Positions 1-15,477 of a stretch of 15,477 nucleotides of DNA are shown here, piece after piece. The stretch's first letter is position 1; every line of letters begins with the position of its first letter. Origin of the DNA: Candidatus Cloacimonadota bacterium. Its GTDB lineage: Bacteria > Cloacimonadota > Cloacimonadia > Cloacimonadales > Cloacimonadaceae. The DNA lies in contig JAQUJJ010000088.1 in NCBI GenBank assembly GCA_028681035.1, positions 1-15,477 on the forward strand, read 5' to 3'. The notes below the pieces were generated by a model. It saw only the letters and a program-made list of their open reading frames with translations, was not told where the DNA came from and searched no databases. Both the position numbers and the translations under genes were made by a program.

Positions 1-10
1 TCGCAGGAGC

Positions 11-166: not shown

Positions 167-253
167 ATGTTCTCAAAGAACGTCAGTAACAATGAGTTGG
201 AATTTACACCAACCTTTGGGACTCAACTTTTTATTGGAGTTAAAAAATGTTAA
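167..253 (+). CDS. 28-aa small ORF overlapping the lipoprotein start
   Basis: This short frame starts at ATG 167 behind a strong ribosome-binding site (GAGGTGAGG at 151-159, about 7 nt before the ATG). It ends at TAA 251-253, so it overlaps the first 7 nt of the next gene, which starts at 247 in another frame. The predicted peptide starts MFSKNVSNNELEF and ends FIGVKKC, and has no recognisable family. It could be a translated leader coupled to the lipoprotein or a genuine small protein; chance is possible at this length. A weak promoter-like TTGACA (89-94) with AATAGT (112-117) lies upstream at 17-nt spacing. The strong Shine-Dalgarno plus the overlap are the only support. Confidence 0.4.
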   Translation: MFSKNVSNNELEFTPTFGTQLFIGVKKC

Positions 254-987: not shown

Positions 988-1031
988 GCTATTGATAATC
1001 CTTAGTAAAAGCGAAACATATAGGAGTAATT

Positions 1032-1460
1032 ATGAACCCATTTTACTATCTTCTGATCGGGATATTGTTGCCTGTAATCCCTGTTTATTGCTCAATAGTA
1101 GCGAATGGCAAAAAGTGGGCAGGGAAAAGCAGCCCGCTACATAAAAAAGTAATCCTTGCAATTTCAAGGAGTCATCTCTATGATTATTTAGCTCAATTAG
1201 GGATAAGTAGCAATATTCAGATAAGCATAATTGACGAGAATGAGATCATTATCAAAATGAATCCCTGCCTTTCTCATTCAGGGTTGGTGTACAGGCTGCT
1301 TATCAGCACTTCTGATGTAATGTTAAAGTTAGAGATTCATGGATTCACATCATGGTATCTACCACAGAATTTTGTGATACGAAAGCACCTGGAATTGTTC
1401 GCTGATAGGTTGAAGCTTCTGGAACTGGCTAATGTTATGATTACAGCAACGACAAATTGA
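1032..1460 (+). CDS. Small membrane-anchored protein, unknown function
   Basis: This 142-aa protein has one strong hydrophobic segment at about residues 5-24, followed by a lysine-rich stretch (GKKWAGK), so it is probably anchored with the remainder in the cytoplasm. The rest (about 40-142) is a compact mixed alpha/beta region ending in a helical LKLLELANVMI. I recognise no domain. The ribosome-binding site GGAG (1022-1025) lies 6 nt before the ATG. It lies 44 nt after the lipoprotein gene on the same strand, so a shared transcript and possibly a shared function (partner or immunity-type protein) are plausible but unproven. Confidence 0.7.
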   Translation: MNPFYYLLIGILLPVIPVYCSIVANGKKWAGKSSPLHKKVILAISRSHLYDYLAQLGISSNIQISIIDENEIIIKMNPCLSHSGLVYRLLISTSDVMLKLEIHGFTSWYLPQNFVIRKHLELFADRLKLLELANVMITATTN

Positions 1461-1597
1461 TCCCGCATATGAAAAATGTACATATCAATCTAATAATTCT
1501 CCATAGGATTTCTACAAATATAAGTATGTGATTTTATGAGGATCAGGATTGTTGTGTCTATTCTTAGCTGAATGGACCCATTAGCAGTATCAAACTT

Positions 1598-1630
1598 GCC
1601 CGGATTTCTGCCTCCATCGGAAATCCGGGC
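1598..1630. terminator. Hairpin after the 142-aa gene (terminator or REP-like)
   Basis: An 11-bp perfect stem (1598-1608 with 1620-1630, GCCCGGATTTC) encloses an 11-nt loop. It lies about 140 nt downstream of the 142-aa gene. The sequence after it (AGATTTCTATTAC) is only modestly T-rich, so termination is uncertain. A palindromic repeat of the same general build as the one at 11-62 is the alternative. Nothing else was seen between 1461 and 1737. Confidence 0.5.
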
Positions 1631-1737
1631 AGATTTCTATTACAGAGCAAGAGAGGATCTGCGGACTTTGCTCAGTCCGACCACTTACATTTTGAGCCGC
1701 ATATCTTAGAATTCGGCACTTAAATCTCAAGGCAGCT

Positions 1738-2361
1738 TTGTCGAAGGGCAGATACACCGAGGTCTACAATGACATTAATGGTGATCTGGTGAACTTCTGG
1801 TGTTACATCAAGCAGCACCCTGAGGCCTTTGTGACCGAGTTGAATCAATACCTCGTATCCAGAGAGATGTTCGACACGTTCGCCCAACATGAGCCCAGAA
1901 CGGAGCTTGAGCGGGCGATCCGTTTTTACTTCCAGTTGTCCTGCAGCTATGGCTCAAGGTCAAAGAACTTCTGCATCATGCAGGGCTACAAGTATATGCC
2001 GCTGCGAAACCTTGAGAAGGTGAAAGCAGCCTCGGAACGGCCCCGACAGGTGATTATCGAGAAGCAGGACTTTGCGAAACTCATTGCCCGCTTTGACACG
2101 CCCAATACCTTCTTCTACCTCGACCCACCTTATTACACAAAGGAGCATCTATACGACAGAGAAGACGCAGATGCATTTACCAAGCATGAAGAACTGGCAG
2201 CCATCCTAAAAAGCATAAAAGGGAAGTTCTTGTTATCCTACAATAACGATCCGTTTATCCGCACACTCTACCAAGGCTTCACAATCGATGAAGTCGAAGC
2301 GCAATACACCGTCTCCGGTGCGTTCCAGACTGAGACTGAGTTGCTGATTAGGAATTACTAA
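1738..2361 (+). pseudogene. 5'-truncated Dam-type DNA adenine methylase
   Basis: The frame matches the D12 class of N6-adenine methyltransferases from the second conserved block onward: YTEVYNDINGDLVNFW near the start, DPPY at residues 129-132 (nucleotide-flipping and catalytic motif IV), and an intact family-like C-terminus (GAFQTETELLIRNY). The N-terminal part with the SAM-binding motif (KWAGGK / FxGxG, normally about 40 residues earlier) is missing. The frame is open upstream only to a TGA at 1693-1695, and the extra residues do not resemble it. The only start is a TTG without a Shine-Dalgarno site. Family members are usually about 260-290 aa. The protein is probably inactive. Such methylases are common in phages, which fits the tail genes downstream. 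Its stop overlaps the convergent cyclase stop by 4 nt. Confidence 0.85.
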
Positions 2362-2984
2362 CAGAGGTATTTATGTACATCATACTGGAAGAGAACTGGT
2401 AGTGGGCTTATTCCTTTCATTTTTTCAGGATCTACTTCTAATGGCTCAAGCATCATCATCCACTTCTTTTTCTCTACCGTTTTTTGTAGTAAATTGTGGA
2501 ATTCCTCATTACATACGATCCGGTTTTCTGCTACTGAAGCCATACGAGCAGTTAAGTCGATACCCTTACCATAATAATCAACTGATACGATGGGAGTGAA
2601 ACTGACATCATATATATCATTGGAGTATGTAATTGCGATCTTTATGTTTGACCTGAGATCGGGTTCGAAATTTTCTGCTGCTGTTATTAACATATTCATC
2701 AGCTTATTTGCAATTTTAGGTTCGGGATCGCTTTCTATGAAGTACATTAACTCATCTCCAACAGTTTTGAGAACAGGGACTACTCCTTCAAATGAATAAT
2801 CGTGAAACCGAAACAATGTATTATGAAGGTTAATGCACCAGTTCGAGAATGGGACATTATACTTGATTTCGGTAGAACCAACTACATCAGCCATAACACA
2901 AAATCCAGAAATTGGCTTCTTATTCTTGATATCATCAATGTCTGTTTTTGTAAGTTGCCTAGAAATGTCGAGTGGCAGTTTCAT
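2358..2984 (-). CDS. Stand-alone class III nucleotidyl cyclase domain protein
   Basis: This 208-aa soluble protein is a single class III cyclase catalytic domain, which converts an NTP to a 3',5'-cyclic NMP as a dimer. Both metal aspartates are present: D33 in MADVVGSTE and D77 in LKTVGDELM. Lys73 and Asp136 align with the two base-selecting residues of adenylyl cyclases. In the segment YGKGIDLTARM the usual transition-state Asn is Asp143, while Arg147 is kept. The C-terminal KGISPLPVLFQYDV matches the normal end of the fold. There are no membrane, receiver or HAMP parts. AGGAG at 2991-2995 (complement) lies 6 nt before the start. It runs opposite to the surrounding phage genes, like a moron. 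Such short cyclases include the Pycsar defence cyclases (cCMP/cUMP), but no TIR or membrane effector is adjacent, and the K/D pair would by the classical rule suggest ATP. Confidence 0.85.
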   Translation of the reverse strand: MKLPLDISRQLTKTDIDDIKNKKPISGFCVMADVVGSTEIKYNVPFSNWCINLHNTLFRFHDYSFEGVVPVLKTVGDELMYFIESDPEPKIANKLMNMLITAAENFEPDLRSNIKIAITYSNDIYDVSFTPIVSVDYYGKGIDLTARMASVAENRIVCNEEFHNLLQKTVEKKKWMMMLEPLEVDPEKMKGISPLPVLFQYDVHKYLC

Positions 2985-3050
2985 AATGAACTCCTAATAT
3001 TTATGATTAATCAAACTTTATTGAGTCATAGCTATTGTCAATGAGGAATT

Positions 3051-6026
3051 ATGCCTGACTTAACTTTCAAACTCATCCTCGTCACAGACGATGCCAACAT
3101 AAAGCTTGCAGAAGTCAAGCAGGAGGCTCAGTCCGCCCAGTCTGTAGTGGAGAAGCCTGCCTCGGTTAAAATATCTGCAGAGCAGGCACTGGCTACGATC
3201 AGAGATGTGAAGATAGCAGTGGATGGAGTGATGCAGGTTGTGGGTGGTCTGGTCAGGTCTATGAATGGCCTGCTTGATGCATCGCTTGGTCAGCGACAGG
3301 CTGTGACCCTGGCTTCGATTGCTTTCGGTGATGCTGCTGTTGAGATGGGCAACTTCGCTTCTTCTATGCAGTCTGTGACCAATTTCGAAGATGATCAGCT
3401 ACTATCTTTGATGTCCAAGCTGTCCCAGACCTTCAAACTGAACAAGGATGAGATTCAGCAGCTTGTGCCAGTGCTATTGGACTTTACAGAAGCTAATAAA
3501 GCCACTGGGATGAGTGTAGAATCTGCCTTTGATCTGATGGGTCGAGCATTGAATGGTCATACTGAGATGTTAGGTCGTTATGGGATAGAGCTTGATGATA
3601 CCAGGCTCAAGAGCGAAGGGGTATCTTATCTGGTCGAAAAGCTTGGTGAGGACTATGGTGGTACTGCCACTGCTCTGGCTGATCTACGGCTGCAGAATGC
3701 CAATGCTTGGGGTGATATCCAAGAGACCGTAGGCGATATGCTGACTGCCATGATCAACCCACTGCTTTCAGGTTTGAAGCTGCTCATGGATGCATATAAC
3801 AGCCTGTCTCCAGTGATGAGAGGCTTCGTAGCGGGGATCGTGATCGCCATTCCGGTTATTGGTACCGTTACCACTGCCGTTACAGCACTGACGGCTGCCT
3901 ATCATGCCTTGCAGGTAGCGATGAACCCGGTAGCTGGCATTATCGGTATTGCCGTGGGTGCCTTGTCGATCTTGGGTTTCGGATTGGCGGCAGCTTCAGT
4001 TAAAACGGATGCTGTGACCGCATCTCAGCGTACCTTGAATGTTGAGATCAAGGACGCTCATCGTCAGGTCTCGGTAGAGGCTGAGAAGTTCAATATCCTG
4101 TCCTCTCGGCTCCTGGAGTTACGCTCTGCAACCTCTCTGACCTCTGCCGATAAACGGGAGATGAAGAACGTCATTAAGTCGCTCAATGACAACTACTCTG
4201 ACTATCTGGGCAATATCAATTTAGAGACCACTGCTTACAATAACCTGGCATCAGCCCTGCGTAGTGCCTCTGAAGCACTGGTGCAGAAGAAGATTGCTGA
4301 GATCTTTGGACAGAAATACAGTGCTCAAGTACAAGCAGTGGCAGAACTGCAGATACAACTTGATGAACTGAGTCCGGCTGCGGAACGGGCTCGTGATCGC
4401 ATGAACCAGTTGCGCTCTACGGTAGATTGGAACTTCCTGACCAGTGATGCCAATGCGATGGGCTTCAACCCTGCCGCATACTTTGGCAATGACGGTGAGT
4501 GGCTCAAGTTAGAGAGAGTGGTTAATCAGTTCGGTGCCTTGGGTGGACGCCTACAGGCTGCCAAATACGACCTGCAAAGCCTCGGTGAAGCCTATCGTAA
4601 GGCCATGTTGGAAGTGCCTGATCTCAGCTTCGATCATGGTGGTGGTGGCAATACAGGCTCTGCACCTGCTCCCAATCCTGCTGCTTCCGAAGCAGAAGCC
4701 AAACGCAAGGAAGCACTTCGCTTGATGGAGGACTTAGCCAAACTGCGCCAGCCTGAGACCGAGAAGATCGAGATTGAGTATCAGCGTAGGCTTGCTTTGA
4801 TACAGGAATACACCCAAGATGGCAGTGATGCTGAACGTCAGGCTATTGCAGATTTGGATTCTTGGAAAACAGATCAGGATCAGCAGATAACCGATAAAGA
4901 GAAGTCTACCGTGCAATCCAGATACAAGGCAGAAATCGACTACTTCTCTAATCTCCAGAACCTCGGGGTCTCTTCTTATGATGCGCTCAAGATCAGTATG
5001 GAAGAGTATTACGCTTGGGCACAGCAGAACCTTTCGGAGAAGGAACAGCAGCTTATCCAGGCTCAGATGAATGAAGCCCAACAGACGCATGCTAAGCTGC
5101 TGCAAGACAGGCAGGATGAAGAGAAAGCCAAGCTGCAAGAGCTGCAGGATATCCGGGACGAGTTCTATACCCGTGATCTGGATAACGTCGGAGACTCTTA
5201 CAGTAAGCAACTTCTTGAAGTGGATCGCTATTACGAGAGAATGAAAGAGAAGCTGCTGGCCGCAGGCATGAGCGAGGTCGAGATTGAGCGGCAGAAGCAA
5301 GAGACCTTACAGACACTCCAAACCAACCATCAGCTTCAGGTTGCCAGTGGTATCTCCAAGATCTTCGGTAACCTTGCCGCTGCCCAGGATAAGGACACCG
5401 AACGTGGCTTCAAGATGTGGAAAGCTTCAGCTATGGCTCAGGGTTACGTGGATACCTTCTCTGCGGCTATTGGAGCCTATAAGTCCATGATCGGCATCCC
5501 GGTTGTGGGTCCCGGTTTGGCAGTGGCAGCAGCCGCAGCAGCGATGGCAGCAGGTATAGCCAATATTGCCCGCATCAGTGCCACCAAGTTCGAAAAGAAA
5601 GCTACTGGGGGCTTGTTAACCGGACCCTCTCATGCTCAAGGTGGCATCCTGATCGAAGCCGAAGGTAACGAATACGTCACTGCTAAAGACAGAGTCAAGG
5701 CACTGGGCAAGAACCTCTTTGACTTCCTTAACTTTGCTCCTATAGACAAGGTGAAGCTTGCCTTTGCAGGTTTGCCACTTCCCTCAGTACCCATTCCTGC
5801 CAACCTGGGCTCAGCTTATGCCGCTGGTGGCACTATCTCTAATAACAGCAGTATGAATACCTTATTGGAAATCATGGCTGATATGCGGGATGAGCTTGTC
5901 TCACTCAAGCAGACGGTAATGGATTCCAAGCCTATAATAGACATACATGTCGATCCACTCAGTAATGACCCGGTAAAGATCTCTGAGATAGCTGATACGG
6001 GCAAGCTGATCAGAAGTGAATTGTAG
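3051..6026 (+). CDS. Phage tail tape-measure protein
   Basis: At 991 aa this is by far the longest phage gene here, as expected for the protein that sets tail length and helps DNA entry. It has a helical N-terminal region (about 1-250) containing a tape-measure-like block (LDASLGQRQAVTLASIAFGD onward). A hydrophobic double segment follows at about 255-322 (GFVAGIVIAIPVIG onward). Long charged coiled-coil stretches occur at about 555-630 and 660-765. An alanine-rich helix at about 820-850 is followed by a glycine-rich tail (ATGGLLTGPSHAQGG) typical of tape-measure C-termini. The start ATG is preceded by GAGG at 3043-3046. The gene is intact, unlike its neighbours, and its first codon lies 67 nt from the divergent cyclase start. 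No muralytic domain was recognised. Confidence 0.9.
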   Translation: MPDLTFKLILVTDDANIKLAEVKQEAQSAQSVVEKPASVKISAEQALATIRDVKIAVDGVMQVVGGLVRSMNGLLDASLGQRQAVTLASIAFGDAAVEMGNFASSMQSVTNFEDDQLLSLMSKLSQTFKLNKDEIQQLVPVLLDFTEANKATGMSVESAFDLMGRALNGHTEMLGRYGIELDDTRLKSEGVSYLVEKLGEDYGGTATALADLRLQNANAWGDIQETVGDMLTAMINPLLSGLKLLMDAYNSLSPVMRGFVAGIVIAIPVIGTVTTAVTALTAAYHALQVAMNPVAGIIGIAVGALSILGFGLAAASVKTDAVTASQRTLNVEIKDAHRQVSVEAEKFNILSSRLLELRSATSLTSADKREMKNVIKSLNDNYSDYLGNINLETTAYNNLASALRSASEALVQKKIAEIFGQKYSAQVQAVAELQIQLDELSPAAERARDRMNQLRSTVDWNFLTSDANAMGFNPAAYFGNDGEWLKLERVVNQFGALGGRLQAAKYDLQSLGEAYRKAMLEVPDLSFDHGGGGNTGSAPAPNPAASEAEAKRKEALRLMEDLAKLRQPETEKIEIEYQRRLALIQEYTQDGSDAERQAIADLDSWKTDQDQQITDKEKSTVQSRYKAEIDYFSNLQNLGVSSYDALKISMEEYYAWAQQNLSEKEQQLIQAQMNEAQQTHAKLLQDRQDEEKAKLQELQDIRDEFYTRDLDNVGDSYSKQLLEVDRYYERMKEKLLAAGMSEVEIERQKQETLQTLQTNHQLQVASGISKIFGNLAAAQDKDTERGFKMWKASAMAQGYVDTFSAAIGAYKSMIGIPVVGPGLAVAAAAAAMAAGIANIARISATKFEKKATGGLLTGPSHAQGGILIEAEGNEYVTAKDRVKALGKNLFDFLNFAPIDKVKLAFAGLPLPSVPIPANLGSAYAAGGTISNNSSMNTLLEIMADMRDELVSLKQTVMDSKPIIDIHVDPLSNDPVKISEIADTGKLIRSEL

Positions 6027-6046
6027 AGTAAGTAGAGGATAAGGAA

Positions 6047-7534
6047 ATGCCAAACCTCTTCAAGATTGAGTTCATCCAAGGCAAAACCACTGCCAGTGAC
6101 TATAACCAACTAAAGCATAGCCTGGTCGATACAGCGGCAAACAGAGCTATCCTCAGTCTATCTGTCTCTGCCGATAAGCTGCAATCGGTCTCCAACTATA
6201 CTCGTGAACCCAAGCGGCTGGTCATTGAGTGCTTTCCCACTACCTGGATACAGGATAACATCCTCTCCGGCAGCAATGAACACGAGCGTTATGTCTCGCA
6301 CTTTGAGGTAAGGGTTTATCGGGATAATCTGCTGTTCTTTACAGGCATCATCGACACTTCCCAACTCTCCTTTGATATCAGCTCCAGCATCCTGAAGATC
6401 ACCTGTTAAGATAAGATCAAGCTGCTTTCACTCTATTCCGATCTCACTCACTATTACAGTCTAACCGCTGGCTATCTGCCGATCTGGATACTGGCATACT
6501 TTCTGCAGGATATCGAGCAGACCATACCCATCTCCATACCGTATTTAAACCAGTTCACGGTGCCGACTCTTAACCTCACATCCGGAAACGCTTTGACCAT
6601 CGCTCATGTTGATTTCGATGATATGCTCGAGTTTCCCAATCCCACCGGAGGCTGGACATACAGCCATCACAGTTCCGGCTGGCCGGGACCCTATGCTGGC
6701 TTCATTGTAGATACAATAGGAAACAAGATCAGCTACGTCTTTGCCTATAAAAAGGTGATCCAGGCGACCTATCCCAATCCTGCCGCTACCCGCTATCAAG
6801 GCAGATTCAGAGCCAGAATCTACAAGTTCTACAACAACATCTGTCCAGTCCTAATCGAGTATGATGAGCGCACAGACTGGGTAGAAGACCTGCCTTCTTT
6901 AGATAACGCCTATAACGAGTTCATGAGCTTCTTTACCGAGCATGGCATCAACCAGACCACGCTCTTTACTAACCTCTCCAGTACGGGCAGCCTCGGCTCA
7001 GCCTACTATGGCAGCAGCCAATACTACAATCACTGGGTGGAAGCCAACTTTCATGGCAATCTCTTTCCTGCTAAACTGCAGCCCGGCAAGTCTTACGAGA
7101 CCCTCAAGGAATAGCAGACCGATAATATCAAGGCACTCCAGGCAATGCTGATGCTCTATAATGCTACCATCTATACCAATGTCAGTGGACAGATCATCCT
7201 TAAGAACAAGGATGACTATTCTACTGCTATCATAGACATAGCGGATGAGGATGTAGTCAGCTTCATGACCAAGCGGGGTAATCCGGAGAAACCGGAGATC
7301 GCCTCACTGGACATAATGGCCGGAGATACAGCTCAGCTGCAAACCCATATCAAAGACTATCTGATCGACTTTCACGACTCCAAGTGGAGCTGCGAAACAG
7401 TAATAGACAATCTCTCCAAATATAACCTCAGCATCCAGTCCAAAATCCGCATCAAAACCAAGGTCTATGCCATTACCGAACTGGAGCGGGACTATATAAA
7501 TGATGAATATAAGGTGAAAGCATGGCTGCTATAA
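6047..7534 (+). pseudogene. Phage tail protein gene with two in-frame stop codons
   Basis: One reading frame of 496 codons runs from ATG 6047 (GAGGA at 6035-6039) to TAA 7532-7534, broken by TAA at 6407-6409 and TAG at 7112-7114. Protein-like sequence continues in the same frame across both: ILKITC, stop, DKIKLLSLYSDLTHYY, and KSYETLKE, stop, QTDNIKALQ. Both fit single-base nonsense changes. Recoding is unlikely because neighbouring genes end normally with TAG or TAA. Position just after the tape measure suggests a baseplate or distal tail protein. The N-terminal part (FKIEFIQGKTTASDYNQL, then a YxSHFEVRVYRDNLLFFTGIIDTSQ region) looks like a tail/hub beta-domain. Three fragments could in principle be translated separately, but only the first has a proper start. 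Confidence 0.8.
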
Positions 7535-7983
7535 AAGGCTTCAAACTGATCCGTTGGGCTGATGACGGTATATTCTACTATTTCTGTGAGAATGGGCAGG
7601 TGGAATATAACCCGGCTCAGAAGTATCGTATCGAGAAGAAGAATGCTTACGATCCCACTTACATCCATAGAAGAGAAGCTTACAGGGAGGACTCCTTCGA
7701 TCTGGAGGCTGTGCTCGAACCTCAGCAGTATTACAGTTTGATGACTTACCTGCTCGGCCCCGGCAAGTTCTATCTGGAATACACTGCCTACAATGAAGTT
7801 AAGCACCAGTTCCCCGTAAATATAGCCCAACTGCCCAAGTGTCCGGATGATCTGCATGAGTTCCCTACCAAGATCAAATTCAGCTTTGAATCCAGATACA
7901 TCGGCTCACCCGGTTACATCGACTTCGGCATCATCATTATTACCGACTTTGACGAGACGGTTAACCCACCTAACCAAAATTAG
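7522..7983 (+). CDS. Conserved-looking phage tail protein
   Basis: This 153-aa protein starts inside the end of the preceding tail gene (13-nt overlap), the tight packing usual in phage tail modules. It is rich in aromatic residues and beta-type segments (FYYFCENGQVEY, YYSLMTYLLGPGKFYLEY), without signal peptide or membrane segment. The pattern of a short beta-rich protein between tail-tip and fibre genes fits a minor tail or baseplate component, but I recognise no named family. The frame is intact and ends at TAG 7981-7983. Confidence 0.7.
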   Translation: MAAIKGFKLIRWADDGIFYYFCENGQVEYNPAQKYRIEKKNAYDPTYIHRREAYREDSFDLEAVLEPQQYYSLMTYLLGPGKFYLEYTAYNEVKHQFPVNIAQLPKCPDDLHEFPTKIKFSFESRYIGSPGYIDFGIIIITDFDETVNPPNQN

Positions 7984-8006
7984 ACAGAAGCATAACAGGA
8001 GCACAC

Positions 8007-8662
8007 ATGTATAAATTCGCCATCAGCTACTACACTATGGAAGGCACTGAACGTAAACCCCAATCGGGAGTGGATATGCGTCTGCTCAGACCCGGGCAGT
8101 CTTGGTCGGAAGGCAAGAAACTGATCGAAATCACCCCCAACTCCGGCTACTACGAGATCGGCATTCAAGCCGAAGCAGACTGCGGTTTTTATGAGCTCTG
8201 GGACAATCTTGGCAGTTCAGCAGGTCAGTTCAGCGGTAAGTCCTGCACGATCGGTAAACTTGATGCCAAAGGTTTGCAGAACAACTGCATCTATGGTAAT
8301 CACATAGAAGATGGAGTGGTCACGGGTAGCAAGATCGCCAATGCAGCGATCTCTACCCATCATCTGCAAGACGGTCTATTATCGCTATCCAAACTTCAAT
8401 ACGAGCTTCAGGATCAAGATAAGGGCATGGGAGACAATACCCAAAACAGCCCTGCCAGTTGCAGGGATGACCGTTTTATCGTGCATAAGCTGCAGAACGA
8501 ATACGCTACTGCCCCTCACATCATCTTGACCAACCGTGCAACTGCTTTCTCTTCATCTCTGAGATCAAGCAGGATGGCGGCCAGATAAGCATTACCATTG
8601 GTATTGGTAACAACTTCGATGCCGAACAAGCAAAATATCAATTGATAGCCTTAGCCGTCTAA
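8007..8662 (+). pseudogene. Frameshifted phage tail-fibre / lectin-like gene
   Basis: The original frame starts at ATG 8007 (AGGAG at 7997-8001) and reads well to about HIILTN near 8534, then degrades into a serine/arginine-rich tail ending at 8588. From about 8540 a second frame (offset -1) continues with sensible protein: CFLFISEIKQDGGQ, then SITIGIGNNFDAEQAKYQLIALAV, to TAA 8660-8662. A one-base deletion or two-base insertion between about 8526 and 8545 explains this. The repaired product would be about 218 aa: an N-terminal beta domain (1-75), a repeat-like linker (LDAKGLQ, IEDGVVTGSKIANAAISTHHL) typical of fibre collars, and an end resembling H-type lectin strands (final YQLIALAV). It would have recognised the host surface. 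Confidence 0.7.
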
Positions 8663-8971
8663 GAATAATCGCCAAGAGACAATAAGAAAGCTTAGAGATA
8701 ATCTGGATCATCGAAGCGATTTGCAGAAACTGTGATCAAATTTGCAGAAACGGTGATCAGAGATATGCCCAAAATAGCCATTTGCAGTTTTCAGTGATCA
8801 GATTTGCAGTTTTCAGTGATCAAGTACAGATGCTCTCACCTGTAAAAAAGAAAGGGAAAGCGAGAAATTACTTGACAGCAATCATTGGTGGCGGTTTCTT
8901 TAGTTTTGGGTGTGAAACTATTGAATTCACATTACTAAAATTAATGTTCTCAGCCCTTAAAAGGAGGAATC
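8663..8971. other. Noncoding gap between phage remnant and lipoprotein gene
   Basis: This 309-nt stretch has no convincing gene. It holds the four-copy repeat at 8719-8823 and, nearer the next gene, a TTGACA at 8872-8877 that could be a -35 box, without a good -10 at 17 nt. A frame opening at 8782 reads through the repeats and into the lipoprotein gene in another phase, has no ribosome-binding site and looks accidental. Confidence 0.6.
8719..8823. repeat. Four direct repeats ATTTGCAG(N)GTGATCA, possible IS end relic
   Basis: Four near-identical 21-22 nt units occur at 8719-8739, 8740-8760, 8780-8801 and 8802-8823. Each begins ATTTGCAG and ends GTGATCAR. The first pair shares AAAC before the GTGATCA end and the second pair shares TTTTCA, so they form two pairs of adjacent copies separated by 19 nt (8761-8779). 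Multiple terminal repeats of this build are known for ends of IS21-family elements, but no transposase gene is in the window. The alternative is an operator array for a regulator of the downstream lipoprotein gene. Confidence 0.75.
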
Positions 8972-10678
8972 ATGAGGAACAGAAAGAGTGGTATTATAGT
9001 TCTCAGTATGCTAGTTCTTTTAGTATTATTGGGTGTTAGTGCCTGTGAAAAGGACAAACCTACAACTCCATCCGCCCCCAGCGGGTTCATAACGGGAACC
9101 GTTTTCTCTCAAGGCAGAGCTGTCTTGGCTGGTGTAACAGTTAAAGTAGGCACGATAAGCACAGAAACCAATATGTATGGTACTTATATGCTCAGCGGAA
9201 TCCCCGTGGGTGCAAGCACTAAGGTGGATTTCGAGATAGCTGAATATATCACTTTGCAAAAGACCATAAGCGTAGAAAATGGAAAAACATCTTACCTTAG
9301 CTGCACAATGTTTAAGCCGACTCAAACTACAATAGTGCCTTCCGTGGATAATACTCTTTACGATGGCGGTGCCCAGATTGTTATTCCTGCCAATGCTTTT
9401 GTGGATGCACAAGGCACTGCTTTTACTGGTAATGTGCTAACTGAAGTGAAATACTTCGATCCCACTTTGCCTGAGTGTATAGAATCCTTCCCGGGGACTT
9501 TCTCCGGTTTGCGTGAAGATGGAGTTACTATAACGGATTTTGAATCCTACGGCTTTATCAGCGCACAGTTCTTCAAGAGCACTGCGCCAACTGAAGAGCT
9601 GAACCTTGCCTCTGGCAAAGAAGCATCCTTGATAGCCCCGATTCCCTACTCATTACAAGCCAATGCACCCGCCACTATCCCCTTGTGGTACTACGACGAT
9701 GTGGCAGGTATCTGGAAAGAACAGGGAGCAGCCACCAGAGTAGGAAATAACTATGAAGGCAATGTATCTCACTTCACCTATTGGAACTTTGACCAACCTA
9801 TCACAATTTCAGACAAATCTACCATTACAGGAAAAGTAGTTTGGAACGATACCAATCATAGCCCCATCGCAAATGCACAGGTAGTTGCCACTGGCGAAAA
9901 TTATTCAGGATATACCAAAGTGTATTCTGCCTCTGATGGTAGCTTTAGCATTTCCGTGAAAGCCAACGCACAAGTGAAAATCCGCGCATACATTGGGCAG
10001 AATAGCTCTCCCAACACAGCAACAATAAACACCGCCGCTGGTGAAGGAACTATGGCAATAGCAGATATCGTGATTAGCGATGAAAGCTATACCTTGAATG
10101 GCAGTTTAGTGGATAGCTCCAGCCAGCCTCTGGCTAATGAATATGGCAATATCACCGTAGTCAGCACAGGAGATTATATTGGCGGATTCCAAACAGATGC
10201 TAATGGCAATTTCTCTACGAAGGTATATCTTTCAAATAGTAAAGCTATTATTTCCATTTATTTTAGCACAGGTTGGGGAGGTAACGGATTGTATTCTTCA
10301 AACGTTCAATACACAGTTCCCCAAATTGGTCAGATTTACAACATTCCTAATCCTATCATGATGGGCGAAGGTGGAAAGGTAACCGGCTTACTGAAAGATA
10401 ATAATGGCAATCTCATTACAAATACATCCGTGTTTTTCATGCAAGAAGATGGAACTCAACAAGGCGAGATGTACGCAAGCGTGGACGAGAATGGACGCTT
10501 TGTAATGTCTCAAGCTCCTAATTTGGTGATTTCAGGTGTAAAAGCATACACCTATACTAGTAATACGAATTACGTTACTGCCAATACTTTTTCCTTAACA
10601 TTCTCAGGTTCTGGAGCAGAGCCTATCGATATCGGGATATTGAACTTTATTGTGGATACCACTCCTAGGAAAAAGTAG
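8972..10678 (+). CDS. Multi-domain surface lipoprotein with carboxypeptidase-regulatory-like repeats
   Basis: This 568-aa protein has a signal peptide with lipobox VSAC and acceptor Cys25, followed by a Pro/Thr/Ser linker (about 28-37), so it is lipid-anchored and probably exposed. Four beta-sandwich modules of the carboxypeptidase D regulatory type can be seen by their G.V.....PL..A.V.V......T...G.F pattern: about residues 38-113, then three in series after about 283 (starting TGKVVWND, LNGSLVDSS and VTGLLKDN). Between them, about 117-275, lies a different beta region beginning GGAQIVIPANAFVDAQG, like the extracellular domain of CILP/FAM171-type proteins, and ending at SHFTYWNFD. No catalytic motif is visible; roles in adhesion or carbohydrate/surface binding are inferred only. 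GGAGG at 8963-8967 sits just before the ATG. The gene stands alone, with a terminator 16 nt after its stop. Confidence 0.85.
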   Translation: MRNRKSGIIVLSMLVLLVLLGVSACEKDKPTTPSAPSGFITGTVFSQGRAVLAGVTVKVGTISTETNMYGTYMLSGIPVGASTKVDFEIAEYITLQKTISVENGKTSYLSCTMFKPTQTTIVPSVDNTLYDGGAQIVIPANAFVDAQGTAFTGNVLTEVKYFDPTLPECIESFPGTFSGLREDGVTITDFESYGFISAQFFKSTAPTEELNLASGKEASLIAPIPYSLQANAPATIPLWYYDDVAGIWKEQGAATRVGNNYEGNVSHFTYWNFDQPITISDKSTITGKVVWNDTNHSPIANAQVVATGENYSGYTKVYSASDGSFSISVKANAQVKIRAYIGQNSSPNTATINTAAGEGTMAIADIVISDESYTLNGSLVDSSSQPLANEYGNITVVSTGDYIGGFQTDANGNFSTKVYLSNSKAIISIYFSTGWGGNGLYSSNVQYTVPQIGQIYNIPNPIMMGEGGKVTGLLKDNNGNLITNTSVFFMQEDGTQQGEMYASVDENGRFVMSQAPNLVISGVKAYTYTSNTNYVTANTFSLTFSGSGAEPIDIGILNFIVDTTPRKK

Positions 10679-10693
10679 CTAGTTTACACATAT

Positions 10694-10730
10694 AAAGGGA
10701 GCGGGAATAGTATCCTGCTCCCCCTTTTGT
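10694..10730 (+). terminator. Rho-independent terminator of the surface lipoprotein gene
   Basis: A 10-bp stem with one G-T pair (10697-10706 with 10713-10722, arm GGGAGCGGGA) and a 6-nt loop is followed by CCTTTTGT. It begins 16 nt after the stop of the lipoprotein gene, separating it from the operon that starts at 10908. The following 10731-10907 shows no gene and no clear promoter. Confidence 0.8.
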
Positions 10731-10897
10731 CTTCGCCAAGTGCCCCAAAGGAAGAGTTTTTTGGCTCATTTATTGCAAATAACAGCCCTTACCCTGCATT
10801 ATCTGAAACTAATATGAGGGATTTGAAGAATTCCTCTGTAGTAATAAGTAACTAAGTTTAGAAAGCATCCGAACATAATGACAAGAATTAAGCCAAA

Positions 10898-10905
10898 AGA
10901 GGTGG
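10898..10905 (+). promoter_or_regulatory. Ribosome-binding site deciding the PqqD-like start
   Basis: AGAGGTGG lies 2-5 nt before ATG 10908 (GAGG core 5 nt away), whereas the in-frame ATG at 10878 has no purine-rich site before it. The shorter, 82-aa form is therefore preferred. Confidence 0.7.
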
Positions 10906-10907
10906 AC

Positions 10908-11156
10908 ATGAATACCGACCAATTGATGACCCTTGCCGTGAACAAGAACGGCTTTATCTTCGATCCCGCAAATGGAGTAAGCTATACAGTTAATGATACC
11001 GGTTTATTCATTCTAAAACACCTGCAAAAAGGGGTGGATAAGGATGATATAATACCCTTGATAACCGAAGAATACGACGTTAATATAGAGAACGCCCGTA
11101 GCGATATAGAACACTATATGTCCATGCTAAAAGCCTTGCATTTGGTGGACGCATGA
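10908..11156 (+). CDS. PqqD-family peptide-binding/recognition protein
   Basis: This 82-aa protein (92 aa if the weak ATG at 10878 were used) matches the PqqD family throughout: a first beta pair (FIFDPANGVSYTVNDTG), helix FILKHLQKG, helix DDIIPLITEEY, then a last helix (DIEHYMSMLKALHLV). PqqD proteins are small winged-helix carriers that hold a precursor peptide for a modifying enzyme (RiPP recognition element); free-standing copies also occur with kinases and ligases. The stop TGA overlaps the ATG of the ATP-grasp gene by 4 nt (ATGA), so the pair is translationally coupled and likely works together. No radical SAM enzyme or precursor peptide gene is next to it, which is unlike PQQ synthesis. 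It probably delivers a substrate to the ATP-grasp ligase; this is inference. Confidence 0.8.
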   Translation: MNTDQLMTLAVNKNGFIFDPANGVSYTVNDTGLFILKHLQKGVDKDDIIPLITEEYDVNIENARSDIEHYMSMLKALHLVDA

Positions 11157-12229
11157 TGCCCAACCTGAAACACCTTAATATAACTATCGCCGTAACAGGG
11201 CTTAAAACAGGCGACAACCCTCAGCCCGGCGTGGCGGTGATACGCAGCATTCGTGCGGCAGGCTTTACAGGCAAGATAATCGGCTTAGTTTATGACGCTA
11301 TGGAATCCGGCATATATCTTGAAGGTATCGCTGATGAAGTTTATCAGATGCCTTATCCTTCCACGGGCGCAAACTCATTCTTAGCTCGCTTGGATTATAT
11401 CCTTAGCGTTAGCAAGATTGATGTCATCATCCCCACTTTGGATTCCGAGATACCCATCTACATCCGCCTGGAAAAAGAGCTGCAAGAACGTGGAATCCAT
11501 ACATATTTACCCACTGAAGAGCAATTTAACCTGCGTGATAAGATTAAGCTTTCCCAATTCTTCCCGCCCAAAGGCATAGACATTCCCAAAACTCACTTAA
11601 TTAACTCCGCTGACCAGATTACTAAACTAAAAGACGAGCTAAACTTCCCTGTTATCATCAAAGGCAGACTGTACGAAGCATATAAAGCTGCCAATGTCTT
11701 TGAAGCGCAGAAGTACTTTTACGAGCTTCAGGCGAAATGGGGCTTGCCTATTATTATGCAGGAAATCATCGATGGCGACGAGTTTAATGTGGTGATAGTA
11801 GGCGATGGCAAAGGCGGCTGCCTCGGCATGGTTCCCCAACGTAAACTGGTGATTACCGATAAAGGCAAAGGCTTTGGCGGCGTGGTGGTGAAGAACCCCG
11901 GCTTGGAAAGCTATGCCAATAAAGTAATCGAGGCACTCTCCTGGCGCGGACCCTGCGAACTGGAAATTATGAAAGATGAAGAAGGCGTGTTCTACCTCAT
12001 CGAGATAAACCCTCGCTTCCCTGCCTGGGTGCGTTTGGCGGAAGGCAGCGGGCAAAACCAGCCCGCCGCAACCGTACTTCTGGCATTAGGCGAAGAACAA
12101 GTGCAACTGCCTCCTTTTAGACCTGGAACGCTTTTTATCCGCCATGCGGAAGACATCATCAGCGACATCAGCTTACTTGGCGAAATCTCCGTTAATGGAG
12201 AACTTATCAGAACAAAGGAAGAGAAATGA
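11153..12229 (+). CDS. CarB-like ATP-grasp ligase
   Basis: This 358-aa cytoplasmic enzyme has the ATP-grasp layout: an N-terminal Rossmann-like pre-ATP domain (about 1-120, with VIIPTLDSE at 91-99), then the ATP-binding lobes. Visible key residues are Lys130 and Lys170 (FPVIIKGR) for ATP phosphates, the QEIIDGDEF hinge at 203-211, and Glu271, Glu284 and Asn286 (CELEI and LIEINPR) for Mg2+. Family members join a carboxylate, activated as acyl phosphate, to an amine. It resembles the carbamoyl-phosphate-synthase-large-subunit/PylC group. The start ATG 11153 overlaps the PqqD stop, with GGTGG at 11144-11148. Its own stop overlaps the next start by ATGA. The acceptor and donor substrates are not readable from sequence. 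In this operon an amino-acid or peptide amide ligation is the simplest reading. Confidence 0.85.
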   Translation: MMPNLKHLNITIAVTGLKTGDNPQPGVAVIRSIRAAGFTGKIIGLVYDAMESGIYLEGIADEVYQMPYPSTGANSFLARLDYILSVSKIDVIIPTLDSEIPIYIRLEKELQERGIHTYLPTEEQFNLRDKIKLSQFFPPKGIDIPKTHLINSADQITKLKDELNFPVIIKGRLYEAYKAANVFEAQKYFYELQAKWGLPIIMQEIIDGDEFNVVIVGDGKGGCLGMVPQRKLVITDKGKGFGGVVVKNPGLESYANKVIEALSWRGPCELEIMKDEEGVFYLIEINPRFPAWVRLAEGSGQNQPAATVLLALGEEQVQLPPFRPGTLFIRHAEDIISDISLLGEISVNGELIRTKEEK

Positions 12230-13575
12230 AAAAGAACTATACAGCCCCATACATCGAACGTAACAGTGCCGGCAACCTGAATAAGTATGCTCATACAACC
12301 GTGGTGCGTCATCAAGATAACATAGATGGCGTGCTTATCAAGGACTTAATTGCAGAGCACGGCTCTCCCTTGTTCGTATTTTCTGAGAAACAAATCCGCA
12401 GGACTTATCGCCGTTTGCTGGATACCATCCGCATCCATTACCCGCTTGCCGACATCACTTGGTCTTACAAAACCAACTACCTCTCTGCCATCTGCAATAT
12501 CTTCCATCAGGAAGGAGCACCCGCAGAGGTTGTATCTGGCATGGAATACGAGCTGGCACGTCATAACGGCATTGCCGGCGACAATATCTACTTCAACGGA
12601 CCCTCCAAGCGCAAAAGCGATTTGCATCGTGCCATCAGCGAAGGTGCTGCCATACATATTGACCATCTGGAAGAGCTGTACTTAATCGAGAAACTTGCAG
12701 AAGAGCTGAACATCACCCCCAAAGTGGCAATTCGCATGAACATGGATACCGGCATAAGCCCGCTGTGGACACGCTTCGGATTTAACTACGAGAACGGCGA
12801 AGCCTACCGCACTGTGCAGCGCATAATATCCGGCGGCAAGATGCAGCTTGCGGGTTTACACACTCATATAGGCACCTTTATCTTGGATCCCAATGCTTAC
12901 TACTGGGCTGCCAGCAAGATGCTTAGCTTTGCCCAAACGATTAAAGAAAACTTCGATATTGTAGTGGATTACATCGATCTTGGCGGGGGCTTTGCATCTC
13001 AGAATACTCTGCATGATCAATATACTCCCGGCGAACTTGCCTCGCCTTCTTTCGAGCAGTATGCCGAAGCCATCGGCACTGCCTTCAACGCCTCCATATT
13101 TGTAAAAGAACACCGTCCCCGCTTGCTTCTGGAAACTGGCAGAGTGCTGATAGACGATGCGGGCTACTTAATTGCCAGCGTGTTGGGCAAGAAGAACCTT
13201 CCCACCGGCGAACGTGCCGTAATTCTGGATGCTGGAGTTAACGTGAATATCACCGCCTGGTGGTATAAACAGCGTTTGTTGCCCACCAAGCCCTTCCCCG
13301 GAAGTTACCAGAATACCGTGTTTTACGGTCCGCTGTGCATGAATATTGATGTTATCCGTCCGGCAATGCCTTTCCCCGATCTGTATTACGGCGATACGGT
13401 GCTTATTTCCCCTGTGGGAGCATACAACGTTACCCAATGGATGCAATTTATAGAATACCGTCCCAATGTGTGCCTCATTTCCGAAACTGGCAAGGTAGAG
13501 ATAATCCGTGAAAAGGAAGATATCAGCGATATGATAGCCAGGGAGTTCATTCCGGAGCATCTTAGACGGGTTTGA
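12226..13575 (+). CDS. Fold-type III PLP-dependent amino-acid decarboxylase, LysA-like
   Basis: This 449-aa protein belongs to the alanine-racemase-fold decarboxylases (diaminopimelate, ornithine/arginine, carboxynorspermidine types). Visible motifs are Lys82 in SYKTN (Schiff base with PLP), RFGF at 183-186, GLHTHIG at 210-216, DLGGGF at 251-256, ETGR at 303-306 (phosphate and pyridine binding, normally EPGR) and GPLC at 368-371 with Cys371. In true LysA the Cys is followed by ESxD, which binds the substrate's distal end; here it reads CMNID, so the substrate is probably not diaminopimelate. Tyr400 follows in VGAYN. Length is within the usual 400-450 aa. AAGGA at 12215-12219 precedes the start, which overlaps the ATP-grasp stop by 4 nt. 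It should release CO2 from an amino acid or from an amino-acid end of a conjugate. Confidence 0.85.
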   Translation: MKKNYTAPYIERNSAGNLNKYAHTTVVRHQDNIDGVLIKDLIAEHGSPLFVFSEKQIRRTYRRLLDTIRIHYPLADITWSYKTNYLSAICNIFHQEGAPAEVVSGMEYELARHNGIAGDNIYFNGPSKRKSDLHRAISEGAAIHIDHLEELYLIEKLAEELNITPKVAIRMNMDTGISPLWTRFGFNYENGEAYRTVQRIISGGKMQLAGLHTHIGTFILDPNAYYWAASKMLSFAQTIKENFDIVVDYIDLGGGFASQNTLHDQYTPGELASPSFEQYAEAIGTAFNASIFVKEHRPRLLLETGRVLIDDAGYLIASVLGKKNLPTGERAVILDAGVNVNITAWWYKQRLLPTKPFPGSYQNTVFYGPLCMNIDVIRPAMPFPDLYYGDTVLISPVGAYNVTQWMQFIEYRPNVCLISETGKVEIIREKEDISDMIAREFIPEHLRRV

Positions 13576-13579
13576 GCAT

Positions 13580-15477
13580 ATGAAGCCTGTAGTGCGCATA
13601 ATGCCCTTTTTCAGAGCAGTAGGCAGCGTAGTCCTTGCCATTCCGCACAGCTATGCTTCTATACTGTTTTCTGATTCCATTCTGTTGGGTCTGATGCTGC
13701 TATTGGTAACTCTGCTTTCTCCTGTTGTGGGCTTATCGGGCTTGGTGTCTCTTGTAGTAGCGATTCTGGTATCCCGCAGCATGGGTTTTGAAAGCTGGGA
13801 ATCCCGTAGTGGCATTGCCGCTTTTAACAGCCTGATTGTTGGCATGGCAGTTGGTTATTATTACCCCATGCAGATGATTACGCATGCACCCACTTTCTAC
13901 TTTGGTTTCCTGGCGATGATTTCCATTATCACGCTGCTTCTGTATCTGCTAATAAGCTACCTATCTAACACCTTCTTCCGTCTTCCCGCCATGAGCCTAC
14001 CTTTTTCCATTGTGGCATTGTTGCTTTGGTTCTATTTTGCCCGGTTGGGTTACTTATCCAATTATCCTTTCGATAAATTGCTGCTTTTCTCCACGCCACC
14101 AGCACTACCGGAGTTCTGGCGGCTTTTCTTTATCAGCCTTGGCTCCATATTTTTTACCCCTGAAGTAGTGGCGGGTATGCTGGTAGGCTTAGCGTTGTTA
14201 ATTATCACCCGCATCGGCTTTGTGCTGGCACTATTAGGATGGACAATCAGCTATTTCCTGATGCATCTGATGGGCAGTGTACCCGGCAGCGGCATGTTCT
14301 ATCCCGGTTTCAATGGCATCCTGATTATGCTGGCAGTGGGCGGAATATACCTTCTCCCCAGCAAGACTTCCTGGTTGGTGGCTGCTTTTTCTACAGCCAT
14401 CGGATTCATACTGATCATGCTGTTTAACCTTACTTACTATCATTTCAACAGTTATACTGGGCTATACTCGACCTTAAGTGTGCCGGTATTTGCCTTCCCG
14501 CTGAATATCGTGGTGCTTTTGGTAATCTTTACGTTGCGCTTGCGCATTGTGGTGAATAAACCGGTGATGAACGACTTTGGGGTCTTCAATCCAGAGCAAG
14601 CCCTGCAAACTTACCAAGAGAGGCACAAACGCTTCAGCAGCCTCGGTATTCCCCAGTTTGCTCTTCCTTTACAGGGAGAGTGGCAAATCACCCAAGGGCA
14701 TAATGGCGAACATACCCACAAATTGGATTGGGCTTACGCCTGGGATTTTGAGATGCAGGATACCAAAAGCAAGCCCTATGCCTCCGATGAAAACACCCTA
14801 AGCGACTATTATGCCTACGGAAAACCTGTTTTTGCCTCTGCTGCCGGCTATGTGGTGAAGCTAATGGACGGCGTGCTCGACAACCCCATTGGACAGCTAA
14901 ACACTCGCGATAATTGGGGCAACTACCTTTGCCTCTCACATGGTTATGGACTTTACAGCTTTTATTCCCACCTAAAACAAGGTAGCTTAGTTGCTAAAAT
15001 GGGGGATTACTTAAAGCAAGGCGATAAACTAGGCTTGATTGGCAATTCCGGACGCTCTGCAGTGCCGCATCTGCATTTCCAGATTCAGCTTGGTGCGGAG
15101 GCAGGTAGCCGTAGCCGCTTGTCTCATCTTGTAAACTATAAACTGCACAGTGGCAATGGCATAGAGTTTATCGGCAGTGGCATTCCCAAGAAGGGTGAGC
15201 TGCTTTCCCCGCTGGTGCCGGAAGAACATCTACAAAGCATGCTGGGCTTGCAAAACCAAGCCGAATTAACACTACAGGTTAATAGCGGGAAACGCCAAAA
15301 ACAAGAAACCTGGAAGATAGAGCTGGATTTTTGGGGTAAATTTAGGGCTAGCTCTAGCAGAAATAGCAATCTGGAATTTAGTGTGTATGGCGGCATCTAC
15401 AATGCTCTTTCGCTGAAAGGGAATCGCAATAGTGCTTTAGCTGCCTTTGCCTTGCTGATTTCTCGCTTGCCTTATAG
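13580..15477 (+). CDS. Urea-transporter-like membrane domain fused to M23 metallopeptidase, partial
   Basis: The frame is open from ATG 13580, 4 nt after the decarboxylase stop, to the right edge (631 whole codons, no stop), so the C-terminus is missing. Residues about 8-320 form a polytopic membrane domain with the two-fold internal repeat of urea transporters: SYASILFSDSILLGL in the first half and SIFFTPEVVAGMLVGL (Glu195) in the second, and matching FNSLIVGMAVG and FNGILIMLAVGG segments. Residues about 365-510 are an M23 peptidase domain: His378/His380 and Asp383 (HTHKLD), the YSHL segment, and HLH at 497-499, giving the zinc ligands. A further basic and beta-rich part follows from about 520. 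M23 enzymes cut peptidoglycan or glycine-containing cross-links. No good Shine-Dalgarno is seen, so translation is probably coupled. The fusion suggests a channel with an attached peptidase. Confidence 0.85.
   Translation, partial: MKPVVRIMPFFRAVGSVVLAIPHSYASILFSDSILLGLMLLLVTLLSPVVGLSGLVSLVVAILVSRSMGFESWESRSGIAAFNSLIVGMAVGYYYPMQMITHAPTFYFGFLAMISIITLLLYLLISYLSNTFFRLPAMSLPFSIVALLLWFYFARLGYLSNYPFDKLLLFSTPPALPEFWRLFFISLGSIFFTPEVVAGMLVGLALLIITRIGFVLALLGWTISYFLMHLMGSVPGSGMFYPGFNGILIMLAVGGIYLLPSKTSWLVAAFSTAIGFILIMLFNLTYYHFNSYTGLYSTLSVPVFAFPLNIVVLLVIFTLRLRIVVNKPVMNDFGVFNPEQALQTYQERHKRFSSLGIPQFALPLQGEWQITQGHNGEHTHKLDWAYAWDFEMQDTKSKPYASDENTLSDYYAYGKPVFASAAGYVVKLMDGVLDNPIGQLNTRDNWGNYLCLSHGYGLYSFYSHLKQGSLVAKMGDYLKQGDKLGLIGNSGRSAVPHLHFQIQLGAEAGSRSRLSHLVNYKLHSGNGIEFIGSGIPKKGELLSPLVPEEHLQSMLGLQNQAELTLQVNSGKRQKQETWKIELDFWGKFRASSSRNSNLEFSVYGGIYNALSLKGNRNSALAAFALLISRLPY

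Follow-up and report, generated by a model that had tools for sequence, protein, structure and literature searches.

A leader-like tail on a decarboxylase and its likely PqqD-like partner in a conserved four-gene bacterial operon

Introduction

RiPP recognition elements (RREs), the domains that recognize the precursors of ribosomally synthesized and post-translationally modified peptides (RiPPs), have become genome-mining signposts for precursor peptides. In lasso-peptide and LPP pathways, the RRE is a discrete PqqD-fold protein (TfuB1, TbiB1, PbaB1, LppB). The ligand motif of lasso-type RREs is given as [Y/W]xxPx[L/V/I/F/A] in one study, which also describes a binding pocket split by a Phe residue, a hydrogen bond between Asp70 of LppB and the leader Tyr, and a pocket residue which varies with the leader aromatic that it meets (PMC13381572). 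Here, we describe a four-gene operon from a Candidatus Cloacimonadota bacterium (assembly GCA_028681035.1, contig JAQUJJ010000088.1, forward-strand positions 1 to 15,477; this whole stretch of 15,477 nucleotides is hereafter called the window), encoding a PqqD-like protein, an ATP-grasp ligase, a pyridoxal 5'-phosphate (PLP)-dependent decarboxylase and a fusion of a urea transporter (UT) with an M23 metallopeptidase. The operon resembles the lasso and LPP pairs in its discrete PqqD-fold protein and in a putative ligand of the [Y/W]xxPx[hydrophobic] type. It differs from them in that the motif is carried by a 449-aa enzyme and not by a precursor, in that the aromatic residue can also be Phe, and in its neighboring genes for an ATP-grasp enzyme, a decarboxylase and a channel-peptidase.

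The other proteins of the operon also have described counterparts. The N-citrylornithine decarboxylase FigC/FslC (PDB 7kh2) is the closest to the operon decarboxylase in sequence and fold, and shares with it a Met in place of the acidic residue beside the catalytic Cys. In contrast to FigC/FslC, the operon enzyme possesses a leader-like tail, the citrate ligands H357 and R387 of FigC are replaced in it, and no nonribosomal peptide synthetase-independent siderophore (NIS) synthetase was recognized adjoining it. In butirosin biosynthesis, BtrK, a decarboxylase related by fold which acts on carrier-bound glutamate according to its PDB molecule name, is paired with the ATP-grasp ligase BtrJ. Unlike in the BtrJ/BtrK/BtrI system, no acyl carrier protein was recognized in the operon, no scan having been aimed at one; if the operon has a carrier at all, this role would fall to the tail and its invariant Lys. 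In the LysW/LysX/LysK system, an ATP-grasp enzyme attaches an amino acid to a carrier protein, the bound amino acid is tailored, and a metallopeptidase releases the product. The same load-tailor-release logic could apply to the operon; here, however, no LysW-like protein was recognized, the peptidase is an M23 enzyme fused to a channel, and tailoring would consist of decarboxylation. Finally, the fourth protein joins the fold of SLC14-type urea channels (dvUT, UT-A, UT-B) to that of LytM/M23 peptidases in a single chain, with a change at the Glu187 site and an M23 half predicted to be cytoplasmic.

The decarboxylase tail and its PqqD-like partner

What is new here is the presence of a leader-like tail on the decarboxylase of each of 206 unique operons. 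This set was obtained by leaving out 10 loci without PqqD or with a decarboxylase shorter than 380 aa, and by removing 11 duplicates (217 to 206). In the window, the tail is encoded at 12226..12297 (+ strand; MKKNYTAPYIERNSAGNLNKYAHT), with Y5 at 12238-12240, P8 at 12247-12249 and K20 at 12283-12285. Its usual form is [YF]xxPx[IVL]...[NSD]K[FY]G. Pro8, Lys20 and an Ile, Val or Leu at residue 10 are found in 206/206 operons, while the leader aromatic is Tyr in 153 and Phe in 53; Asn, Ser or Asp predominate at residue 19 and Phe or Tyr at residue 21, and residue 22 is Gly or Ala. The [YF]xxPx[ILV] part was found in 125 of 126 decarboxylases, and in the 126th as well after its start was re-chosen. 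At the sequence level, this is the motif that lasso-type RREs bind in leader peptides.

In the decarboxylase alignment, the operon enzymes have about 25 N-terminal residues more than their best-scoring homologs of known structure. Since the alignments with FigC, the Methanocaldococcus jannaschii diaminopimelate (DAP) decarboxylase and BtrK start only at query residues 30-36, the tail appears to be an addition to the enzyme. The separation of the tail from homologs is not clean throughout: in a single-sequence search, the alignments of two DAP decarboxylases with lower scores begin at query residues 18 and 26. In the AlphaFold2 model, the mean predicted local distance difference test (pLDDT) score is 47 for residues 1-10 and 38 for residues 11-20, the first 25 residues being of very low confidence, and the barrel adjoining the tail is mostly above 90. 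A free tail would be expected to give such a pattern, which is no proof of one.

The candidate partner of this tail is encoded by the pqqD-like gene (10908..11156, + strand), the product of which is a discrete RRE-type protein of 82 aa matching Pfam PqqD (PF05402, 1.2e-12). Its start at 10908, with AGAGGTGG directly 5' of it, is favored over a longer and less likely form beginning at the ATG at 10878, because the proteins of the close relatives L001, L004 and L005 are also 82 aa long. The best PDB matches of the PqqD profile are the lasso RREs TfuB1 (6jx3, 1.5e-11) and TbiB1 (5v1u, 1.7e-11), with a far weaker match to PQQ-type PqqD (0.038). The family model NF033530 (lasso_PqqD_Strm) matches 19/19 members scanned, the window protein scoring 43.2, under the curated cut-off of 70. 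Asp70 of LppB aligns with Asp66 of the window protein (codon 11103..11105, + strand), which is position 79 in PbaB1 numbering, and of the 119 pairs examined, 116 have Phe or Tyr as the residue dividing the pocket. With a PqqD-family domain nearest to leader-binding RREs and a motif-bearing candidate ligand co-encoded in 206/206 operons, the PqqD-like protein is likely an RRE variant whose ligand is an enzyme tail.

This assignment agrees with the covariation of the two proteins. All 153 Tyr tails occur with Asp (141) or Asn (12) at PqqD position 79, and all 53 Phe tails with Tyr (42), Ser (7), Ala (3) or His (1). Among 33,972 PqqD-decarboxylase column pairs, the tail aromatic and PqqD position 79 rank first by corrected mutual information (z 14.7), and the fourth-ranked pair, PqqD 68 and tail residue 3, lies near a published backbone contact. 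In a phylogeny from which the tail was left out, the tail class changes about five times, both traits changing together, and Tyr tails standing among Phe tails again carry Asn or Asp. Collectively, kinship, motif and covariation make a predicted PqqD/tail clamp well supported, and the pairing of Tyr with Asp or Asn, and of Phe with Tyr, Ser, Ala or His, is a directly testable binding prediction.

Another pair concerns the second block of the tail. Among 152,874 decarboxylase-ATP-grasp column pairs, tail residue 18, two residues before Lys20, and ATP-grasp F289, which adjoins the catalytic N286 and R288, rank first (z 12.6). This pair gives a hint, and only a hint, that the tail may reach the ATP-grasp active site.

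Search for a separate precursor peptide

A short precursor with a leader, by which a lasso or other RiPP pathway is recognized, was not found around the operon. A 26-column profile of the tail gave one strong match per genome in 20/20 operon-bearing genomes (E 5.7e-14 to 2.5e-5), at least 4 of which had supplied rows to the profile; this match was always the decarboxylase start just past the ATP-grasp gene, and the next best match had an E-value of 0.0086. In 20 genomes without the ATP-grasp marker, no match to the tail profile was better than 0.054. No second copy of the tail motif was found among local open reading frames (ORFs) of 25-379 aa. The short conserved ORF that the first-pass annotation of this DNA had suggested seeking did not emerge either: the neighborhoods of the 206 operons contain 1,911 ORFs of 25-80 aa, none of which was recurrent, the widest similarity cluster covering 5 operons. 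A nearby RiPP precursor is thus rejected on the motif check, the tail profile in 20 genomes and the short-ORF clustering, while a distant precursor with an unlike leader would escape these searches. That annotation had also named a peptide-recognition protein; the peptide recognized, however, is most likely the N-terminal extension of the decarboxylase and not the product of a short ORF of its own.

No description of this gene combination was found in the PMC literature searched, outside which most subscription journals lie, and the operon goes without mention in the accessible portions of a survey of Bacteroidales RiPPs (PMC10352776) and of two further articles (PMC13097080, PMC12710340). If an enzyme tail is the ligand of this widespread RRE family, as appears to be the case, many loci marked by PqqD could be mistaken for RiPP clusters as a class, and RREs would serve more generally as clamps by which biosynthetic complexes are assembled.

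Operon conservation and distribution

In the window, the four reading frames are tightly packed, as had been noted from the sequence: pqqD and the ATP-grasp gene overlap by 4 nt (11153-11156), the ATP-grasp and decarboxylase genes by 4 nt (12226-12229), and a gap of 4 nt separates the decarboxylase gene from the UT/M23 gene starting at 13580. The best match in the genome collection is L001, from Candidatus Cloacimonetes bacterium HGW-Cloacimonetes-3, with 84% over UT/M23.

The four genes form one operon, with an order conserved across phyla. Loci with the ATP-grasp gene numbered 227, of which 135 with shorter flanks were left out, full flanks being defined as at least 1.5 kb upstream and at least 5.5 kb downstream of this gene; removal of two duplicates reduced the remaining 92 to 90 unique loci. 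In 87 of these 90, all four genes are on the same strand in the order PqqD, ATP-grasp, decarboxylase, UT/M23, as in 89 of the 92 when the duplicates are counted; gene by gene, PqqD is found in 90, the decarboxylase in 89 and UT/M23 in 87. The exceptions to the order are L082 and L083, with UT/M23 elsewhere in the genome (L039, L046), and L131, with UT/M23 inverted; in L083, the decarboxylase was not seen at the locus. In a third genome, G001 (L021 and L081), parts of the operon are on separate contigs. The first-pass annotation had read the four frames as one coupled unit and had named, as a possible refutation, a gene order that varies among relatives; this refutation fails, the same order and strand recurring in several phyla. 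Its remark that the genes match no housekeeping pathway also holds, since none was recognized. As the full extent of the system, four genes fall short: they are its core, and an envelope part consisting of a gene for a tetratricopeptide repeat (TPR) protein, an outer-membrane-barrel-like gene and sometimes a secreted protein usually follows or flanks them.

A contig scan with the UT/M23 alignment identified 507 relatives, of which the best 80 were kept; taxa named among these 80 are Cloacimonadota, Bacteroidota, Balneolaceae, Rhodothermaceae, a Chlorobiota and a Marinimicrobia bacterium. Whole genomes added 161 further regions to the locus set. The ATP-grasp profile proved a clean marker, with operon matches above 500 bits and others below 50 in the first 12 genomes. 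In six partly overlapping taxon draws, this marker was found in 34/395, 33/124, 16/149, 50/198, 1/98 and 102/247 genomes, which indicates a patchy distribution; from the genomes with a match in the 50/198 and 102/247 draws, 98 were taken, as 100 regions. Named isolates carrying the operon, according to record titles, include Algoriphagus formosus, A. kandeliae and Rhodonellum psychrophilum. Two full-length matches to the ATP-grasp profile occur in each of two genomes, G908 (L183 and L241) and G910 (L190 and L221), the second in G908 being much the weaker (231 vs 599 bits).

Decarboxylase and ATP-grasp chemistry

The decarboxylase (12226..13575, + strand, 449 aa) has the alanine-racemase fold of PLP-dependent decarboxylases and matches both the N- and C-terminal Orn_Arg_deC families of Pfam. 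K82, C371, M372 and D375 are invariant in 206/206 operons, the PLP lysine and the catalytic Cys thus being kept throughout. In the pocket, M372, I374 and W346 are found in 206/206 and T343 in 196/206. According to a study on FigC, DAP, lysine/ornithine and arginine decarboxylases bind the distal amine of their substrates through an acidic residue beside the catalytic Cys, DAP decarboxylase binds the distal carboxylate through an Arg, the citrate contacts H357 and R387 of FigC were proposed by docking, and the same clade contains SbnH, AcsE, MccE and BtrK (PMC7857480). The substrates of these four enzymes are conjugated amino acids, that of BtrK according to its PDB name.

Compared to these enzymes, the operon decarboxylase has lost the distal-group-binding residues. 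A Met replaces the acidic residue in 206/206, and the position of the DAP decarboxylase Arg, in a 3-10 helix, is occupied by Thr (196), Ser (9) or Ala (1). The LysA-like identity initially given to this protein is therefore rejected, its lysA score being 199.1 against a cut-off of 297.9. Similarly, the positions of FigC H357 and R387 hold I374 (206/206) and Q404 (204/206, with 2 gaps), and the score of 223.8 is below the curated cut-off of 500, which argues against a strict citrate-type siderophore decarboxylase (FslC/FigC), even though FslC/FigC is the nearest relative by sequence and fold. Because the amine-, carboxylate- and citrate-binding residues are all replaced, the distal group of the substrate is probably neither a free amine nor citrate, and would be a group such as an amide, as the neighboring ATP-grasp ligase would make.

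This ligase (11153..12229, + strand) is carbamoyl-phosphate-synthase-like, matches Pfam ATP-grasp_3 and ATPgrasp_Ter, and has E284, N286 and R288 invariant in 206/206 operons. The solved relatives of its profile include carbamoyl-phosphate synthetase, 2pn1 and biotin carboxylases, among others. A link to PylC, suggested by the Pfam name, was abandoned, as PylC is not named among the 53 listed matches with E-values up to 0.01. Ligation followed by decarboxylation is a reasoned inference from these residues. Of the earlier proposal that a conjugate is made and decarboxylated, a coupled conjugate pathway is supported, this order of steps fitting the active-site residues; a separate RiPP peptide is not supported. 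The other domain calls of that annotation (PqqD, ATP-grasp, UT and M23) were borne out, leaving the LysA label as the one to be replaced.

The channel-peptidase

The fourth gene (13580..15477, + strand) is cut at its 3' end by the window, the frame running past 15477; its closest relative, P0121, is 733 aa long. Its product matches Pfam Urea transporter (3.9e-40) and Peptidase_M23 (1.7e-15), with the UT domain at residues 20-318 (13637..14533, +) and the M23 domain at about residues 359-535 (14654..15184, +). The protein thus has the UT fold and the His/Asp/His residues of M23 enzymes: H380, D389, H464, H497 and H499, which we take to be the metal and catalytic residues, are invariant in 196/196 sequences, the UT/M23 pieces of L006 and L118 being treated separately. 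The fold matches of the protein scarcely extend into its C-terminal part (about residues 540-733).

For the urea channel half, we assumed the dvUT filter numbering to be Q24, V25, F27 and F243. Over the 196 sequences, Phe is kept at the F27 site in 195 and at the F190 site in 192, Leu at the L84 site in 170 and at the L247 site in 176, and Gln at the Q24 site in 139; the T130 site is mostly Ser (187/196) and the T294 site is Ser (126), Ala (34) or Val (26). A complete loss of the urea filter, as the clade of the window suggested, is contradicted by the Gln24 and Thr130 sites in this larger set. The residues compared are those listed for the selectivity filter of dvUT (PMC4357013).

Both ends of the UT domain are on the K/R-rich side by the charge pattern, and the M23 domain is thus probably cytoplasmic. 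The channel-peptidase at the membrane that had been proposed stands as far as its two domains are concerned; a wall peptidase, with an M23 domain that is probably cytoplasmic, is not what the charge pattern points to. At one locus (L092, 9944-12198), UT and M23 are two overlapping ORFs, the M23 ORF being without a signal peptide. This split was not used as evidence on topology, as the break falls at a run of seven T and may be a sequencing error.

Proposed mechanism and alternatives

We consider it reasonably likely that PqqD is an RRE adaptor on the decarboxylase tail, that ligase and decarboxylase form one complex, and that UT/M23, as predicted, releases the conjugate and passes it outward. 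In this proposal, PqqD would bind the tail through its YxxPxI part, and the ATP-grasp enzyme would join an amino acid to an acceptor ahead of decarboxylation, an order suggested by the loss of the residues for a free distal amine or a distal carboxylate. The second tail block, with the invariant Lys, would meet another enzyme, most simply at the ATP-grasp active site, and the decarboxylase would act on the aminoacyl conjugate. The cytoplasmic M23 domain would then cut the product free, and the UT pore, followed by the TPR and outer-membrane-barrel-like proteins, would carry it out. Our confidence falls from PqqD-tail binding to ligation before decarboxylation, then to the second tail block and its Lys, and finally to M23 release and export; Lys20 as carrier and M23 as releasing enzyme are hypotheses. 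The operon would make and export an amino-acid-derived compound, and probably one used by the host bacteria, since the genes, mostly accompanied by an envelope part, are conserved from Bacteroidota and Cloacimonadota to Marinimicrobia-type bacteria.

Several observations weigh against this proposal. Five other stretches of the decarboxylase, some near the active site, also have pLDDT below 50; the case for Lys20 as acceptor consists of its invariance alone; UT/M23 is apart from the other operon genes in 3 genomes; and the Glu187 site of the channel is Ala (123) or Ser (45) in 168/196 sequences, so that the filter is partly changed. With only two changes of the F289 class along the tree, the pairing of F289 with tail residue 18 may reflect shared ancestry within clades, and while P18 occurs with Ile, Leu or Met in 95/95, T18 occurs with Phe (16) and Ile (5). 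For the clamp itself, the second-ranked pair, PqqD 79 and tail residue 19, is without a known contact and may hitch-hike, well-supported branches force only 2 tail-class changes, and independent pairs, concordant in 2/2, are too few for a significant sign test. A Pagel-type test gave a likelihood ratio of 65.8, with the same partition in 0/20,000 independently simulated traits, but tests of this type overstate few-event cases; that an unguided scan ranked first a published crystal contact is the stronger argument. Given so few switches (about five, two of them strongly supported), clade history alone might explain the covariation; PqqD would then bind something else, and the tail would function within the decarboxylase itself. 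Against this stand zero exceptions in 206 operons, the first rank of a published contact, the Asn or Asp regained by Tyr tails among Phe tails and the failure of simulated traits to match, and we regard this explanation as very unlikely.

Other readings differ on the role of the tail. The tail might only dock, tethering the decarboxylase to PqqD and the ATP-grasp enzyme while a free small molecule is ligated as in the FigA/FigC type, Lys20 being a structural contact. RRE binding would account for the YxxPxI half without any modification, FigC is the nearest relative, and its substrate is described as a free N-acylated ornithine (PMC7857480); the exchange of the FigC citrate residues for I374 and Q404, and a second tail block about 10 residues past the RRE-binding half with an invariant Lys, fit this poorly, and we hold it to be possible but doubtful. 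A bolder form of the adaptor proposal, which we think unlikely, would make the tail a substrate arm: PqqD would clamp YxxPxI, the ATP-grasp enzyme would load an amino acid on Lys20, the decarboxylase would decarboxylate it in its own active site, the cytoplasmic M23 domain would cut off the finished amine at the channel mouth and the channel would export it. If true, this would be a new carrier-based biosynthesis, guided by an RRE without a precursor peptide. The decarboxylase could also be a client, its tail presented by PqqD for modification or clipping, for instance by M23, in order to activate the enzyme at the membrane. The operon peptidase does keep its five M23 residues in 196/196, and RREs serve the leader peptidase in lasso-like systems (PMC13381572); yet tail conservation centers on Lys20 and not on an obvious cleavage pair, which leaves this a slim chance. 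Comparably improbable, if by a hair less so, is a classical RiPP pathway, in which a precursor encoded elsewhere would be modified by PqqD, the ATP-grasp enzyme and the decarboxylase, the tail being a side copy of the leader. PqqD kinship to lasso RREs would suit it, as would the role of MccE, from the same decarboxylase clade, in microcin C maturation (PMC7857480), but neither a second tail-like leader, in the 20 operon-bearing genomes or among local ORFs, nor a recurrent short ORF accompanies the operon, a distant precursor with an unlike leader being what these searches would miss.

Neighboring genes

Downstream of the core, a TPR gene of one family is present in 83/93 unique loci and an outer-membrane-barrel-like gene in 79/93, of which 64 through families f5 and f6, the count of 79 using a loose rule based on length, hydrophobic start and C-terminal residue. 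Clustering of recurrent neighbors, which covered ORFs of about 80 aa or more, also gave a secreted-protein family encoded within the operon or next to it in 28 loci (e.g., L068 7712-8494 and L098 5917-6762), including three in which it lies between core genes (L068, L086, L116). Three members were scanned: a type IX secretion C-terminal tail is present in two, and an FG-GAP-like match likewise in two, although in one case it scores under the cut-off.

Upstream, the window encodes a lipoprotein-like protein with CarboxypepD_reg repeats (8972..10678, + strand), of the same similarity family as the gene 5' of the operon in L001 and a possible operon partner. In L127, L130 and L132, a secreted protein of about 142 aa is encoded immediately 5' of pqqD (e.g., L127 8051-8476). 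Its family is found in 9 loci and has a conserved Cys-rich C-terminal end, VDCxLxYCxWCKxNGFH...; a Pfam scan of one member gave no match. This protein is possibly a substrate or partner. In eight loci (L037, L042, L050, L058, L059, L063, L065, L072), a gene 5' of pqqD encodes, by eye, a heavy-metal-associated half joined to an AraC-like regulator, and a second recurrent upstream family, in 6 loci, is DUF2202/ferritin-like by eye. A metal link is possible from these two families.

An anti-phage defense system was considered and dropped, as six proteins (the four of the window and two of L001) matched 0 PADLOC-DB families at E up to 0.001. The region of the window near the operon (3051-8588) is phage-like, with a tape-measure protein (phrog_3336, 2.4e-20) followed by small ORFs without PHROG matches. 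Further upstream, an ORF that starts with TTG and resembles DNA methyltransferase genes (1738-2361, + strand; phrog_56, 2.4e-52) converges, with an overlap of 4 nt, on an ORF of the opposite strand (2358-2984, - strand), the product of which contains an 'ADVVGST...VGDEL' pattern that we take to be a class III cyclase-like motif.

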